Below the pieces are notes generated by a model, which was not told where the DNA came from, did not search any database, and was given only the letters and a program-made list of their open reading frames with translations. A DNA stretch of 64,000 bases, from the NCBI RefSeq assembly GCF_003387615.1, contig NZ_QUNS01000002.1, positions 186,001 through 250,000 on the forward strand, written 5' to 3'. Every line of letters starts with the position of its first letter. Positions within the stretch are counted from its first letter, which is position 1. Source of the DNA: Tenacibaculum gallaicum. Its GTDB lineage: Bacteria > Bacteroidota > Bacteroidia > Flavobacteriales > Flavobacteriaceae. This document shows, piece after piece, positions 43,746 to 49,238 of this stretch. The position numbers were made by a program, and so were the translations under genes.

Positions 43746-44654
43746 ATGAAAAATTTTTTATTAGCGGCTATTTTTTTAGCTTCAGGAACAGTTTTCGCAC
43801 AGTTCGCAAACCCATTACCAACACCAAAAGCTAATTGTTTAGGGTGTTCAGTGCCACAAGTAGGACCTTCTTATGGGGCAAGAGGAGCGATAATTAACAC
43901 TAGTTACGTAGATCAAACTGGAGTTATGAATGACGCAAGTGTAGTTCAAACTGGAGTAGGTAACTTATCTAACATCGATCAAGATGGTCAAAACCAAGGA
44001 TTTTCTGGAGGTTTAGGAAACGAAGCTACTGTATACCAAAGAGGAAGAAAAAATGAGACCGATATTAAGCAACATGGTGACTATAACACTGGTTTTGTAA
44101 ATCAAGTAGGATATAAAAACTATGCACAACAAGATGTAGGTGTAGGTTGGGCAGAAAATAACAGAGCATATGCTTACCAAACAGGACGTCAGAATACTTC
44201 TATTCAGAAACAACGTTATGATAATAATGTAGCTATTGTAGCACAATCTGGTAGAAGAAATTTAGCTCACCAAGATCAAAGTACAGGAACTAATGGGGCG
44301 CCAGGTAGTGTAGCAGGTATTTTACAACTCGGTAACTATAATAAAGCTAAACAAGTACAAAGAGGTAGCTTTAATATAGATGGAATTGCTCAATTTGGAA
44401 ACGCAAATATGGCTTCTACTACTCAAACATCAACTGGAGGTATAAACATTTCTGGTATAGCACAAACAGGTTATGGTAATGAAGCTTGTGTTGATCAAAA
44501 TGCTGATGTTGGTATTAACTTAAGTTTAATTGGTCAGTTTGGTGTAGAAAACCATGCCTCTGTTATTCAAGACGCGCAAGGTTCAGGTAATGCTAGTTTT
44601 ATTGGTCAAGCAGGTTATATGAATAAAGCCTGTGTTGAACAAACAGGACTATAA
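43746..44654 (+). CDS. csgA: Curlin-repeat protein, major curli subunit (CsgA-like)
   Basis: 302 residues with a signal peptide (MKNFLLAAIFLASGTVFA). Around ten curlin-type repeats follow the pattern N-A-x-x-x-Q-x-G (ASVVQTGVGNLSNIDQDG, ATVYQRGRKNETDIKQHG, AIVAQSGRRNLAHQDQS, ISGIAQTGYGNEACVDQ, ASFIGQAGYMNKACVEQ). It is about twice the size of E. coli CsgA. Unlike enteric curlins it has cysteines: a CLGC pair just after the signal (Cys31, Cys34), and Cys248 and Cys296 at the same position of two repeats. It should be exported through CsgG and polymerise into amyloid on the cell surface. First gene of the operon. Confidence 0.92.
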   Translation: MKNFLLAAIFLASGTVFAQFANPLPTPKANCLGCSVPQVGPSYGARGAIINTSYVDQTGVMNDASVVQTGVGNLSNIDQDGQNQGFSGGLGNEATVYQRGRKNETDIKQHGDYNTGFVNQVGYKNYAQQDVGVGWAENNRAYAYQTGRQNTSIQKQRYDNNVAIVAQSGRRNLAHQDQSTGTNGAPGSVAGILQLGNYNKAKQVQRGSFNIDGIAQFGNANMASTTQTSTGGINISGIAQTGYGNEACVDQNADVGINLSLIGQFGVENHASVIQDAQGSGNASFIGQAGYMNKACVEQTGL

Positions 44655-44723: not shown

Positions 44724-45179
44724 ATGAAAGAGGTGAAAACAATATTGTTTGTAATGTTGGTTACTATTAATCTGGCTATTATGTCACAGCAAAAGACATC
44801 TACATATTTTGTGTCTGTGCCTCAAATAGGAAATGATGTTTCTTTTATAGTACTAGAGAAAAATATTAATTCATTAAATGGTTTACAAGATTTTAGTAAT
44901 GTAACTGCTAATCAAAATTATTTATCAATAAATCAAATAGGAATAAATAATGTAGCGGAATTAAAAAGTGGAGCGAGAGATGTGCAATTAGTAGGGCAAA
45001 AGGGTAAAAATAACTATTATAGTTTTATAGATTATTACAACACTTCTCCCACAAAAATGGATATCCTTCAGCAAGGAAATGCAAATTCATTACAGGTGTA
45101 TGGAACAAACTCTTTAATGGAAAATGTAAAAATAATTCAAAAATCTAATTATAAAACAATTATAGTTAGGAACTATTAA
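44724..45179 (+). CDS. Minor curlin-like protein, probable nucleator (CsgB-like)
   Basis: 151 residues with a signal peptide (TILFVMLVTINLAIM). Degenerate curlin repeats follow: YLSINQIGINNVAELKSG, VQLVGQKGKNNYYSFI, MDILQQGNANSLQVYG, ENVKIIQKSNYKTIIV. Fewer and more hydrophobic repeats than the first gene, with a basic C-terminus, resemble nucleating subunits. It is between csgA and csgE; the CsgB role is inferred from position and repeat type. Confidence 0.75.
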   Translation: MKEVKTILFVMLVTINLAIMSQQKTSTYFVSVPQIGNDVSFIVLEKNINSLNGLQDFSNVTANQNYLSINQIGINNVAELKSGARDVQLVGQKGKNNYYSFIDYYNTSPTKMDILQQGNANSLQVYGTNSLMENVKIIQKSNYKTIIVRNY

Positions 45180-45182
45180 AAG

Positions 45183-45920
45183 ATGTTAAGGTTTATTTTT
45201 TTTAGAAGCGCTTTAAAATATATTACTCTGTTGTCACTTTGTGTAGCAACAAGTTATGCTCAAGAAATAAACGATGTGAAAGCCAAAATACTTGTTCTTA
45301 AAAAAGATAATTTTATATCGGTAAAAGCACAAGCTGAAAATGAAGGGGTGTTGTTTAAAGATGAGCTTAACTACAACTTATTAGTACTAAAAAAAAATAA
45401 AGAAGGAAACTATTCTAACAATAAACAATCAGGAGAATTTTCGTTAAAACCTAATGAGAAAAAAGAGCTTTCATTAATAAGGTTAAGTTTAAATCCTGAT
45501 GAAGAATTAAAAGCTTATTTATTTGTAAAGTACAGGGAGACATTGATAGATAAAGATACGCTAGTAATAGTACCCAAAAAGGTAGGTGTAATAAAAAAAG
45601 AAAAAATAGACGAATCTAATTTTGTATTAAAAGGATTGGTTATTGAAGAAGCAATAACAAAAATAGGGAAAGACTTTTATGATTTTTTTTACCAAGAGTA
45701 CTTGCTCTCTGGCTTAAAATATCCTTTTATTATAAAAATAAAAGAGAAACCAGGATTAAGAAGAACTACAGTTTTAATTATTGAAGCTGATGATAAAAAG
45801 ATTTTTGAGTTCATGACAATGCCAGGAGAAGATTTTCTTAAACGAGCTGTTAAAGCATCTTTAGTAAGATTAAGCAGTTACTCAAAACAGAGAAATACAT
45901 TATTAAGTTATAAAATTTAA
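45183..45920 (+). CDS. csgE: Curli assembly factor CsgE with an N-terminal CsgH-like domain
   Basis: 245 residues with a signal peptide ending near CVATSYAQ. The C-terminal part (about 147-245) has the CsgE pattern: LKGLVIEEAITKIGKDFYDF, KIKEKPGLRRTTVLIIEADD, and RAVKASLVRLSSYSKQ. The N-terminal part (about 25-145) is a predicted beta-sandwich with LNYNLLVLKKNKEGNYSNNK, then QSGEFSLKPNEKKEL, very like the CsgH curli chaperone of alphaproteobacteria. CsgE caps the CsgG pore on the periplasmic side and delivers substrates; CsgH restrains curlin polymerisation. A fusion would combine both. Starts 3 nt after the preceding gene. Confidence 0.82.
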   Translation: MLRFIFFRSALKYITLLSLCVATSYAQEINDVKAKILVLKKDNFISVKAQAENEGVLFKDELNYNLLVLKKNKEGNYSNNKQSGEFSLKPNEKKELSLIRLSLNPDEELKAYLFVKYRETLIDKDTLVIVPKKVGVIKKEKIDESNFVLKGLVIEEAITKIGKDFYDFFYQEYLLSGLKYPFIIKIKEKPGLRRTTVLIIEADDKKIFEFMTMPGEDFLKRAVKASLVRLSSYSKQRNTLLSYKI

Positions 45921-45932
45921 ATAAAGTAAGTT

Positions 45933-46349
45933 ATGAAAATAGCAACCAAACTTATAACAATTGTTTTATTTTTAATAAGTTCATTTACTTTTTCACAAGA
46001 ACTAGTTTATAAACCAATTAATCCATTTTTTGGAGGAAATAATCCATTCGGATATCAGCAAATTTTGGCATCAGCAAATGCACAAAACGATTTTCAAGAA
46101 GAAGCACAAGATCCTTTTCAGCAACCTTCAGACTTAGAAAATTTTACCAATAGTTTAAACAGGCAACTGTTAAACTCATTATCTCAAGATTTATTTCAAG
46201 AACAATTTGGAGATCAAGGATTAACTGTTGGAACTTATGTGTTTGGATCTTTAGTAGTTGAAGTAACACCTACTAGCGGAGGTTTATCTGTAAATATTTT
46301 AAATACTCAAACAGGTGAACAAACACAAATTATAATACCAAACAATTAA
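45933..46349 (+). CDS. csgF: Curli assembly protein CsgF
   Basis: 138 residues. A signal peptide is followed by the CsgF N-terminal signature ELVYKPINPFFGGNNPFGYQ, the segment that plugs into the CsgG pore, then a Gln-rich linker and a C-terminal beta domain (LTVGTYVFGSLVVEVTPTSG, VNILNTQTGEQTQIIIPN). CsgF is exposed on the outer face of CsgG and couples nucleation to the surface. It follows csgE by 12 nt. Confidence 0.93.
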   Translation: MKIATKLITIVLFLISSFTFSQELVYKPINPFFGGNNPFGYQQILASANAQNDFQEEAQDPFQQPSDLENFTNSLNRQLLNSLSQDLFQEQFGDQGLTVGTYVFGSLVVEVTPTSGGLSVNILNTQTGEQTQIIIPNN

Positions 46350-46380: not shown

Positions 46381-47727
46381 ATGAGAAAATTACTATTCAA
46401 ATTACTATTCTCTTTAAGTTTTATCTTGTTTTCTAGTTGTGGAGCATACCTAAATCAGCCATTCCAAACAACGAATGCTAGAATAGGAGAAAACACCTCT
46501 TTACAAAACGATTTAATTAAAAATATTCTACCTGTCGAAAAAGTAATCGTAGGAGTTTATAAATTTAGAGATCAAACAGGACAATATAAGCCGACTGAAA
46601 ACGGCTCTACATTTAGTACCGCGGTAACGCAAGGAGGTACATCAATTCTATTAAAATCATTAGAAGAATCAAAATGGTTTACTCCAATAGAAAGAGAAAA
46701 TATCGCTAACTTATTAAATGAACGACAAATAATAAGGTCGACAAGGCAAGAATATCAGGGAGTTAATTCCACAAAAATGCCACCATTACTTTTTGCTGGG
46801 ATTATTTTAGAAGGAGGTGTGGTTTCTTATGATTCTAATATTATTACAGGAGGTTCAGGAGTTCGATATTTTGGAGCGGGAGCATCTAATCAATATAGAG
46901 AGGACAGAATAACAGTGTACTTAAGAGCTGTATCTACATCAAACGGACAAATCTTAAAAAATATTTATGTGTCAAAAACAATACTCTCTCAAGGTATTTC
47001 AGCAAATTTATATAGGTATGTTTCTTTAAGAAGATTGTTAGAAGTAGAAACAGGGGTAACCAAAAATGAACCTATGCAATTAGCTGTAAAAGAAGCTATA
47101 GATAAAGCAGTTGAACAGTTGATTATAGAAGGTGTTGTAGATGGTTTATGGGCTCCTAAAGGAGGAGAACCAGTTGTCAGCCTTTTTAAAAAGGAATATC
47201 TGAAAGAAAAAAATGAAGCAGATAATACTTTACTTTTTAATAGAAAGCAAGAAACAAGAAGAGAGAGAAACTCAATGAGTGTAATGGCTGGAACTTCGAT
47301 AATTTCAGGAGACTATTCGAACCCAGTTGCAAGATTTGGGTTTGATTTAAAATACAGATATTTCTTTGAGAACCCACGATTTAGTTTTGGAGGAAGTGTA
47401 GGACGGTTTTCATTAGAAAACGAACGATCTTTTAAAAATACATTTCTTACCTCTAGTATATTCTTAGAATATAACTTACTTCCTTATGATAAGTTAACAC
47501 CTTACGTGTATGTTGGTGTAGGTTCAGTTTTAGAGGAGAATCTTGATAATCCTATGTTTAAATTTCAATACGGAATAGGATTAGAATATTTAATAACCAA
47601 TAAAATAGGGTTAACTTTTTATGGAGAAAATTACCTTTTAGGTTCAGATAATCTAGATAAGTTGGTTAGGGGGAAAAGGAATGACTTTATTTGGAGAGTA
47701 GGAGTAGGTTTAAACGTTTATTTTTAA
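46381..47727 (+). CDS. csgG: Curli secretion channel CsgG with an extra C-terminal domain
   Basis: 448 residues, against about 277 for E. coli CsgG. The lipobox is FSSC (Cys20). The CsgG core (about 21-260) has VEKVIVGVYKFRDQTGQYKP, the constriction-loop region GSTFSTAV, WFTPIERENIANLLNERQII and GVVDGLWAPK at its end. The added C-terminal part (about 298-448) has alternating hydrophobic strands (FGFDLKYRYFFENPRFSFGG, FLTSSIFLEYNLLPYDKLTP, and a last strand WRVGVGLNVYF ending in Phe), like a small outer-membrane beta-barrel or surface domain. The core forms the nonameric outer-membrane export pore for curlins. Confidence 0.92.
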   Translation: MRKLLFKLLFSLSFILFSSCGAYLNQPFQTTNARIGENTSLQNDLIKNILPVEKVIVGVYKFRDQTGQYKPTENGSTFSTAVTQGGTSILLKSLEESKWFTPIERENIANLLNERQIIRSTRQEYQGVNSTKMPPLLFAGIILEGGVVSYDSNIITGGSGVRYFGAGASNQYREDRITVYLRAVSTSNGQILKNIYVSKTILSQGISANLYRYVSLRRLLEVETGVTKNEPMQLAVKEAIDKAVEQLIIEGVVDGLWAPKGGEPVVSLFKKEYLKEKNEADNTLLFNRKQETRRERNSMSVMAGTSIISGDYSNPVARFGFDLKYRYFFENPRFSFGGSVGRFSLENERSFKNTFLTSSIFLEYNLLPYDKLTPYVYVGVGSVLEENLDNPMFKFQYGIGLEYLITNKIGLTFYGENYLLGSDNLDKLVRGKRNDFIWRVGVGLNVYF

Positions 47728-47738
47728 GAAGCAAAGCA

Positions 47739-49238
47739 ATGAAAAATATAATAAAAATAACAATACTTTTAATTTGTGTAACCTTATTTAACTGTAGTGA
47801 AGATACTGTAGGTTTTGTGGAATTTGGTACAATTAAAGGACGTGTGGTAAAAAAGAGAAGTTTTGAACCTATAGCAAACGCAAAAATAGCACTATCGCCA
47901 ACCAATAATACAGCTTTTACTGATGAAGAAGGTTACTTTTTAATGGAAGATGTACCTGCGCAAGAATATTCGGTAAGTGCAACTAAAGAAGGGTTTTTAA
48001 CAAACTTTCAACCAGTAGGATTGAATGCAGGAAGTGAGATTAATGTAGTTTTTGAGATGGATATAGAAACTGCTTTAAACGATCCGCCAACCACACCAGA
48101 ACTTAGAGCTCCAGCTAATGGCGTAGAAGATTTAAATAATATGGTAGAACTAAGTTTTAAATCGACTGACCCTGATGAAGATGAAATAACATACAGGATA
48201 GAAATTAAAAACGACTTTAATAATGATGTTATATCTTTTGAAAATGTAAAAGACACTTTATATACAGTTTCCGATTTAAAATTTGGAGTAAAATATTTTT
48301 GGCAAATAGGAGCATCAGATGGCATTAATGCAGAAGTATTAAGTTCAGTAAGTACATTTAAAGTTACATCAACGCCTAATAATAGGTATTTTTATACACG
48401 ACAAGAAGAGGGGAATAATGTAATATATTCTGGAGATTTTATCAATGAAGCTTCTGTAAATGAATTACTATTAACATTACCAACAACAAATTCTTGGAGA
48501 CCAAGAAAAAACTCAGCAGCAGGTTTAGTAGCTTTTTTACGAACAGACAATAACGAAACTCATATTTATACAATGAATACAGATGGTTCAGATGTTAAAA
48601 AAGTTACTTCTAATGTCCCTGTAGTTGCATTTGATTTAAACGAAGTTGATTTCTCATGGTCTTCAAACGGAGATCGAATTATATATCCGCATTACGATAA
48701 ATTATATTTGATAAATAAAGATGGAAGCGGGTTACAGCAAATATACCAAACAACTGATGGTAGTTACATTACTGAATGTGATTGGAGTAATGATGAGTCA
48801 AAAATAGCATTGAAAACAAATAATACAAGTGGGTATAATGTACAAATCTATACGATTGATATGGTAGGAAATATGATTGATACTGTTTTAACAGGAGAAC
48901 AAGGAGCTGCAGGAGGAATTAATTTTACAATAGATGGAAGCTCGCTGTTATACACAAGAGATGTTTCTGGATATGAATCAAGTAATTATAGGCAACTAAA
49001 CAGTCATATGTTTTTATATGAATTTGCAACGACAGAAGTTACTGATTTATCGGAAGGAAAAGCTGATGGAACAAATGATTTAGACCCGCGTTTGTCACCA
49101 AATGAAGCTGAAATAATTTTTGTAAATACATCAAATGATGGAATTTCTGAAAAAACAATTTATAAAGTGCCTTTTAGTGAAGGTACTACCACAAGAACAG
49201 CGTTATTTATAAACGCCACAATGCCAGATTGGGAATAA
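47739..49238 (+). CDS. Curli-operon lipoprotein: CarboxypepD_reg, FnIII-like and TolB-type propeller
   Basis: 499 residues from ATG 47739, which gives a proper lipobox (LFNC, Cys16). Domains in order: a carboxypeptidase regulatory-like domain (GRVVKKRSFEPIANAKIALS, about 30-100), a fibronectin III-like domain (PPTTPELRAPANG to FWQIGASDG, about 112-205), and a TolB/WD40-like propeller with repeats such as DVKKVTSNVPV, SWSSNGDRIIYPHYDKLYLI, SPNEAEIIFVN. It is the last gene of the curli operon, starting 11 nt after csgG. Its place suggests a surface-exposed accessory or anchoring factor; no function is known to me. Confidence 0.8.
   Translation: MKNIIKITILLICVTLFNCSEDTVGFVEFGTIKGRVVKKRSFEPIANAKIALSPTNNTAFTDEEGYFLMEDVPAQEYSVSATKEGFLTNFQPVGLNAGSEINVVFEMDIETALNDPPTTPELRAPANGVEDLNNMVELSFKSTDPDEDEITYRIEIKNDFNNDVISFENVKDTLYTVSDLKFGVKYFWQIGASDGINAEVLSSVSTFKVTSTPNNRYFYTRQEEGNNVIYSGDFINEASVNELLLTLPTTNSWRPRKNSAAGLVAFLRTDNNETHIYTMNTDGSDVKKVTSNVPVVAFDLNEVDFSWSSNGDRIIYPHYDKLYLINKDGSGLQQIYQTTDGSYITECDWSNDESKIALKTNNTSGYNVQIYTIDMVGNMIDTVLTGEQGAAGGINFTIDGSSLLYTRDVSGYESSNYRQLNSHMFLYEFATTEVTDLSEGKADGTNDLDPRLSPNEAEIIFVNTSNDGISEKTIYKVPFSEGTTTRTALFINATMPDWE

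Follow-up and report, generated by a model that had tools for sequence, protein, structure and literature searches.

The csgE gene of Tenacibaculum gallaicum raises the question of how a curli system without a separate amyloid-blocking gene may guard against early amyloid, and whether the secretion factor itself could carry the guard. In Escherichia coli, secretion requires CsgE, which assembles into a ring on CsgG, according to the portion of PMC5135000 available to us. The stretch of DNA analyzed here, the window, comprises 64,000 nucleotides of the T. gallaicum genome (assembly GCF_003387615.1, contig NZ_QUNS01000002.1, positions 186,001 to 250,000 of the forward strand). A first-pass annotation, made from the letters alone, had read the gene as CsgE fused to a CsgH-like N-terminal domain and had proposed that one polypeptide couples the activities of the two; the fusion is supported by our analyses, while the coupling of activities has not been demonstrated.

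The Fused Gene and Its Operon

The csgE gene (45183..45920; like all features given here, on the + strand) encodes 245 aa in a single open frame, in which the motifs quoted by the first-pass annotation are indeed present. Its hydrophobic N terminus, ending in SYA before Q27, suggests a signal peptide of residues 1–26 (45183..45260), a region that the AlphaFold2 model folds as one helix (residues 2–24). There follow a CsgC/CsgH-like Ig domain (residues 27–131; 45261..45575), delimited by family-model matches, the predicted structure and fold matches; a Lys-rich linker (residues 132–148; 45576..45626), with pLDDT below 50 at residues 133–149; and the CsgE domain (residues 149–245; 45627..45917). 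We consider this arrangement of signal peptide, CsgC/CsgH-like Ig domain, loose linker and CsgE firm as to the fusion and the fold, within the limits of a reading from sequence and a predicted model.

The presence of CsgE behind the N-terminal domain in the same polypeptide is borne out by Pfam PF10627, which matches residues 149–239 with 50.3 bits against a cut-off of 25 (E 3.2e-13), so that the curated cut-off for membership in CsgE is met. This C-terminal domain is what the window protein shares with E. coli CsgE (PDB 2NA4, PF10627), which has no such N-terminal domain; the E. coli-type CsgE model, 129 positions long, matches only residues 145–231. In the N-terminal part, the NCBIfam CsgH model NF041112 matches residues 62–116 (E 2.2e-7) with 30.8 bits and does not reach its cut-off of 35, the NCBIfam CsgC model NF007507 matches residues 67–115 (E 0.0028) with 17.7 of 75 bits, and Pfam Tafi-CsgC (PF10610) matches residues 66–115 (E 0.0032) with 18 bits and does not reach its cut-off of 25. 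With the N-domain cut out alone, the scores are 33.2 of 35 bits for NF041112 and 20 of 25 bits for PF10610, so neither curated cut-off for membership in CsgC/CsgH is met by the window domain.

The csg operon around the gene is intact. A curlin-repeat subunit of the CsgA/B type (43746..44654; PF07012, 2.8e-21) is followed by a second curlin-like subunit (44724..45179), whose assignment is weak, with no Pfam match and only 24 of 160 bits for the CsgA model NF007470 (3e-05). The csgE gene begins 3 nt past this second ORF, which satisfies the expectation that a CsgC/CsgH domain is encoded beside curli subunit genes. Downstream lie csgF (45933..46349; PF10614, 2.6e-33) and csgG (46381..47727; PF03783, 6.8e-65), the latter with a possible C-terminal extension resembling an outer-membrane barrel (PF13505, 2.1e-05, below cut-off). 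The window CsgG is 448 aa long, the barrel-like extension coming after the CsgG domain and matching a PorG model at 2e-05, far below cut-off; the CsgG copy of a Flavobacterium genome, G526, has 454 aa. Directly behind csgG, at 47739–49238, lies a predicted lipoprotein with a CarboxypepD_reg-like domain and DPPIV_N/WD40-like repeats, and G526 has a similar lipoprotein-type ORF in the same place (L387, 12932–14416); this ORF is possibly a curli accessory gene.

The first-pass annotation had also remarked that the operon contains no separate CsgC or CsgH gene, and the observation extends further than that: with the CsgH and CsgC models, none was found in the whole window genome (99.96% complete, 22 contigs). 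The CsgH model matched csgE itself and, with 14.9 bits, part of a 779-codon frame, with no other matches, and the CsgC model matched csgE only, under its cut-off.

Fold and Kinship of the N-Terminal Domain

The first-pass annotation had named structure prediction as the test that could refute it, and the N-domain passed. The full-length AlphaFold2 model, built from 50 sequences (the window protein and 49 of 80 named loci), has a mean pLDDT of 87 and shows seven strands within residues 32–129, followed by a low-confidence linker at 133–149 and the elements of CsgE; with a pTM of 0.49, the mutual arrangement of the two domains is not known. Modeled alone from 53 sequences (the window and 52 of the 80 named loci), the N-domain gives pLDDT 92.7, pTM 0.84 and again seven strands, and the model thus has the seven-stranded Ig-like beta sandwich expected of CsgC and CsgH. 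Foldseek with the N-domain alone ranks CsgH (2N59) first, at E 5.0e-06 and a TM score of 0.69 by target, and CsgC (2XSK) second, at E 1.4e-05, TM 0.80 and rmsd 2.5; with the full-length model, they come at ranks 1 and 5. What did not stand is the extent of the CsgH-like part, which had been put at 120 residues and is about 105 (27–131).

Ig-like folds are common, however, and fold alone is not decisive: VIA-align gives the N-domain Z 12.0 with CsgC (rmsd 2.2 over 94 residues) and Z 10.9 with CsgH, and unrelated Ig domains reach Z 11.8. It is the sequence evidence that tips the balance toward CsgC/CsgH. The N-domain profile finds CsgC as its best match among PDB sequences (E 0.0064), and NCBIfam CsgH matches 52 of 53 N-domains (the window and 52 of the 80 named loci) at E<=0.01, with a best value of 8e-11; because nearly all relatives match and the fold agrees, we take the CsgH match to be more than chance. 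The other models are less sensitive, with NCBIfam CsgC matching 30 and Pfam Tafi-CsgC 13 of the 53 N-domains, and Pfam CsgH (PF21112) only two at E<=0.01, the window not among them. Matches of another kind were set aside. A streptococcal pilin chain, first in the PDB sequence search with the window protein (8e-06), rests on two weak repeats, each with an i-Evalue of 0.25, and is at odds with the model; we put it down to chance, as we did the HIV Env chains that the N-domain profile picked up in the PDB at E >1.

On the other hand, the N-domain fails the disulphide criterion of Taylor 2016, by which CsgC is recognized by a CxC motif and CsgH by two distant cysteines. No cysteine pair was found in the N-domains: the window domain has no cysteine at all, and of 188 N-domains only four contain any, one cysteine in each case. 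We therefore call the domain CsgC/CsgH-like and not a strict member. With the CsgH of R. palustris (PDB 2N59, NF041112), it shares the seven-strand Ig sandwich, the sequence match over residues 62–116 and the coding site beside curli subunits, and it differs in being fused to CsgE, in lacking a cysteine pair and in staying under the model cut-off. With E. coli CsgC (PDB 2XSK/2Y2T, PF10610), it has in common the fold and the best PDB sequence match of its profile; it lacks the CxC motif, and E. coli CsgC is a separate gene, in a csgBAC operon according to the available part of PMC3521004.

Spread of the Fusion in Bacteroidota

The first-pass annotation had suggested a survey of CsgE domains in Bacteroidota, and the result makes the fusion a family-wide norm and not a peculiarity of the window genome. 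In a phylum sample, CsgE occurs in 41 of 395 genomes. All 16 of those belonging to the same order, Flavobacteriales, have the N-domain, in frame in 14 and split in two, a count that rests on our own CsgH-like profile; with the same profile, the remaining 25 genomes, with 27 CsgE loci between them, yielded no such domain. The curated model NF041112 matches 15 of the 16 same-order genomes at E<=10 and exceeds its cut-off in the fused or split gene of seven; the N-domain of the remaining genome, G130, is not detected by it even at E 10. Six of the 25 other genomes have a separate csgH over cut-off, on the same strand and ~4–7 kb from csgE. Within the family Flavobacteriaceae, 86 of 397 genomes have CsgE, none of the listed ones being of the genus Flavobacterium, and all 88 csgE loci of this survey (84 retrieved and four further) are in-frame fusions, which makes the window gene the normal family design. 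One of the family loci (L159) is cut by a contig end, and in another (L181) a stop interrupts the part matched by Pfam CsgE.

CsgE carries other additions elsewhere. In two loci (L206 and L216), the CsgE frames reach ~400 codons, and their long linker reads, by eye and without a model scan, like a second CsgH-like domain. In other Bacteroidota, a peptidoglycan-binding LysM domain stands in front of CsgE in nine of 16 scanned proteins over cut-off (L001, L004, L005, L007, L013, L014, L015, L017 and L043), with L008 just under, and would offer another means of keeping something at the mouth of the pore. Two loci of another Bacteroidota family (L018 and L038) have CsgE with long N-terminal regions of alternating hydrophobic residues and no family match over cut-off; these are possibly diverged Ig domains, but comparison with the CsgH-like profile gave no support (probability 0.1 and 7.6), and they were not counted as CsgH-like.

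Bacteroidetes are reported to lack csgC (PMC3521004, in the portion available), and one sentence in the accessible part of PMC4838910 names CsgH sub-families for Bacteroidetes; the words "fused" and "fusion" are absent from that text. Among the titles and abstract beginnings listed for the open-licence literature, none concerned a CsgH–CsgE fusion or a frameshift in csgE.

A Conserved Frame Change in Flavobacterium

Part of the genus Flavobacterium departs from the family design. CsgE was found in 93 of 398 genomes, and with three loci from the phylum sample, this gave 96 csgE loci, all of which were examined. The N-domain and CsgE are in one frame in 54 and in different frames in 42 (~44%). 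The junction is exactly A10-G in 41 of the 42 split genes, the zero frame reading NAA AAA AAA AAG; a zero-frame stop follows 0–10 codons past the site (median 2), and CsgE continues in the −1 frame. The sole exception, L113, has A12; its csgE is closely related to that of L116, which has A10, and the difference could be genuine or could stem from the assembly. Among the 80 named loci, three are split, all at A10-G: F. frigoris PS1, F. macacae YIM 102600 and a MAG, the two named strains overlapping with the 96-locus set and not being extra cases. The genome G526 is split too, into ORFs of 136 and 99 aa, with neighbors of the same kinds as in the window operon. Stops interrupt both other frames in all 42 split genes, each split genome has one CsgE match, and each split gene is followed by an ORF of 132–141 aa, which we take for csgF by position and look, without a CsgF-model scan.

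Mapped on the tree of the 41 A10-G split genes, the 11 positions of the site have undergone zero changes, compared with 1–14 at each flanking position from −45 to +45, and the G after the run is invariant although it opens −1 codons for four different amino acids (D, E, A and V). Runs of at least nine A are concentrated in the linker, with 51 in 6,425 nt against six in 58,158 nt of both domains; outside Flavobacterium, only two of 84 linkers have such a run. The two frames are also maintained as protein: in split genes, the N-domain has a median pairwise dN/dS of 0.088 (0.097 in in-frame genes) and CsgE, translated in the −1 frame, one of 0.062 (0.112 in in-frame genes). Pairs were limited to dS 0.15–1.2 and are not independent. 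The CsgE of split genes is under purifying selection. A conserved slippery sequence at the frame change and protein-level selection on both frames, both expected of a recoding gene, are thus present, and the invariance of A10-G together with the selection on CsgE fits programmed ribosomal frameshifting or transcriptional slippage. We regard a programmed slip in Flavobacterium csgE as strongly supported; the slippage itself is inferred from sequences, without a transcript, a peptide or an experiment behind it.

The window gene has no A10 site, and the frameshift part therefore concerns its relatives. In the linker region where Flavobacterium genes have A10-G, it has an A7 run (45593..45599; zero frame A AAA AAA), for the use of which there is no evidence. 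A slip there is possible, with the −1 frame closing after a few codons, but such closure comes easily in A-rich linkers, and we do not claim a slip site here.

Alternative Explanations

Long A runs are error-prone on some platforms, and the split genes could be pseudogenes or homopolymer sequencing errors. We find this extremely improbable: a site identical in place and length recurs in 41 of the 42 genes across different assemblies, one-contig genomes included, CsgE has a dN/dS of 0.06, and none of the 84 retrieved family loci outside Flavobacterium is split, the stop of L181 lying inside the CsgE match. It is scarcely more than conceivable that the CsgH-like part and CsgE are two independent proteins in these genomes, as the two ORFs seen by a gene finder would have it; 22 of the 42 genes do have an ATG, GTG or TTG that lies in the CsgE frame where the domain begins or close by, but the other 20 have none up to three codons into the domain, no signal peptide was seen in the CsgE frame of split genes, and the 11-base site is fixed. 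Phase variation at the DNA level, with A10 as the off and A11 as the on state of CsgE, would account for the in-frame genes with A11 (L233 and L031) and perhaps for the A12 of L113. A switching tract should, however, be on in a good share of genomes, and the near-universal A10 of split genes, kept while the flanks change freely, makes such switching very unlikely. The function of the N-domain is a separate matter: it could be a mere Ig-like spacer or a module anchoring the ring, and not an amyloid inhibitor, as its missing cysteine pair and the similar Z of other Ig domains would allow. Against this, CsgH and CsgC are its best matches by sequence as well as by Foldseek, and six genomes whose CsgE is without the domain have csgH as a gene of its own close to csgE; we consider the spacer unlikely, though worth keeping in mind, and amyloid blocking at the pore by the N-domain likely, its function being inferred without an assay.

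If the split genes are bridged by a programmed slip, the slipping machine could be the ribosome or RNA polymerase, and this remains unresolved. Programmed −1 frameshifting at A AAA AAG, as in E. coli dnaX and IS3 elements, is a candidate that we hold only tentatively. It would explain why the G after the run stays fixed in 41 genes while the amino acid of the −1 codon varies, and G526 appears to meet a condition that the available part of PMC4066793 names for shift-prone A_AA.R motifs, a tRNA-Lys with UUU only: three tRNA-Lys genes are UUU and none CUU among 47 tRNAs called with the Rfam tRNA model and ARAGORN. That list is incomplete, with 150 of 543 candidates scored, and a tRNA-Lys pattern search found mostly other sites, none of eight scanned loci having a tRNA by ARAGORN. 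Stimulators are a further difficulty. RNA downstream of the run (+5 to +75) in split genes folds with a mean z of −1.51, with 12 of 41 under −2, against −0.07 and 0 of 41 at 120 nt further on; at the same place, however, the values are nearly equal in in-frame genes (−1.08 and 9 of 46 without a run, −1.85 and 3 of 8 with one, against −1.42 and 12 of 41 in the split genes of that comparison), and we do not count downstream structure as specific evidence. An SD-like GGTGA occurs in 24 of the 41 A10-G split genes, within Gly-Glu codons, and is a doubtful stimulator since F. johnsoniae ribosomes hide their anti-SD (PMC8710568, in the portion at hand). The stimulatory hairpin or SD element of a recoding gene is thus lacking, an aid that is absent in some known cases too, and recoding as such is known in F. 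johnsoniae, whose prfB has a +1 frameshift site despite the hidden anti-SD, according to the same portion of PMC8710568. The four A's before the heptamer, including the wobble base at −9, are unchanged as well, and the A12 of L113 would not be served by a −1 ribosomal slip. Polymerase slippage on A10, with a share of the transcripts put in frame as for Thermus dnaX, would suit the preservation of exactly 10 A's, more than the heptamer includes, and the absence of specific stimulators; L113 could be served by losing one A, and homopolymers of eight or longer are frequent slippage substrates, according to the available text of PMC3711429, in whose main text "Csg" and "curli" do not occur. It has no need for an invariant following G, and we see it as a reasonable possibility, short of a probable one. 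The parallel with dnaX of E. coli and Thermus (the accessible text of PMC3711429) lies in a stop close to an A run or A AAA AAG and in two products sharing an N terminus. Split csgE differs in that no specific stimulators were found, that the shared domain is periplasmic and chaperone-like, and that the slip would yield the long product, not the short one.

A Proposed Chaperone at the Pore, Free or Tethered

We propose that the window gene yields one periplasmic protein in which a cysteine-free CsgC/CsgH-like Ig domain is joined by a flexible linker of ~17 residues to CsgE. By inference from E. coli, the CsgE ring would sit at the periplasmic mouth of CsgG and bring up to nine amyloid-delaying domains to the entrance, where, tethered, they may keep CsgA-like subunits disordered until export. 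In the split Flavobacterium genes, decoding without a slip would give a free CsgC/CsgH-like chaperone, whereas the fusion would arise when RNA polymerase slips on A10 or the ribosome slips by −1 on A AAA AAG, such that one split gene could determine how much chaperone is free and how much is tethered. The explanation as a whole, with the window fusion holding an amyloid-delaying domain at CsgG and the Flavobacterium slip site making free and fused forms, we judge to be probable. Its Flavobacterium part, a two-product recoding gene in which the A10-G slip leads to a free blocker and a blocker–CsgE fusion, with a site apparently gained more than once and an A run in the reverse layout in some lineages, seems to us very probable.

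If true, the Bacteroidota curli systems reported to be without csgC (PMC3521004, as far as its available text goes) could still be guarded against early amyloid, and the likely blocker in this family would be the front half of CsgE. The slip site would act as a simple genetic control over how much chaperone is free and how much is tethered to the pore, and would be a case of a recoding site outside mobile elements, in the gene of a periplasmic amyloid chaperone. A gene finder would read a split csgE as an unknown protein and a CsgE without signal peptide, missing the fusion.

Origin of the Site and a Possible Reverse Layout

The csgE tree was inferred quickly, with SH-aLRT support only and with long-branch warnings. 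One clade of 46 genes (support 99) unites 41 split genes with four in-frame genes that have A10 or A11 (L031, L067, L083 and L089) and with L112, which has no run and yet lies inside the slip clade. One split gene with A10-G, L118, falls outside the main clade, beside the in-frame L132 (support 99). The tree requires at least five changes of state, and a single clade of all split genes is rejected (AU p 0.0006), the group having been chosen after the first tree was seen. From the sequences, the A10-G site appears to have more than one origin; gain of the site by gene transfer is not excluded.

The run may also work the other way around. In Flavobacterium genes that are in frame and have at least nine A in the linker, both other frames close within six codons in 8 of 8, whereas in genes without a run this holds for 17% of control positions. 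The six-codon limit was chosen after the values were seen, and as some of the eight genes are close relatives, the independent cases are fewer. A reverse, dnaX-like layout is possible in some lineages, in which the fusion would be made by default and the free blocker on a slip.
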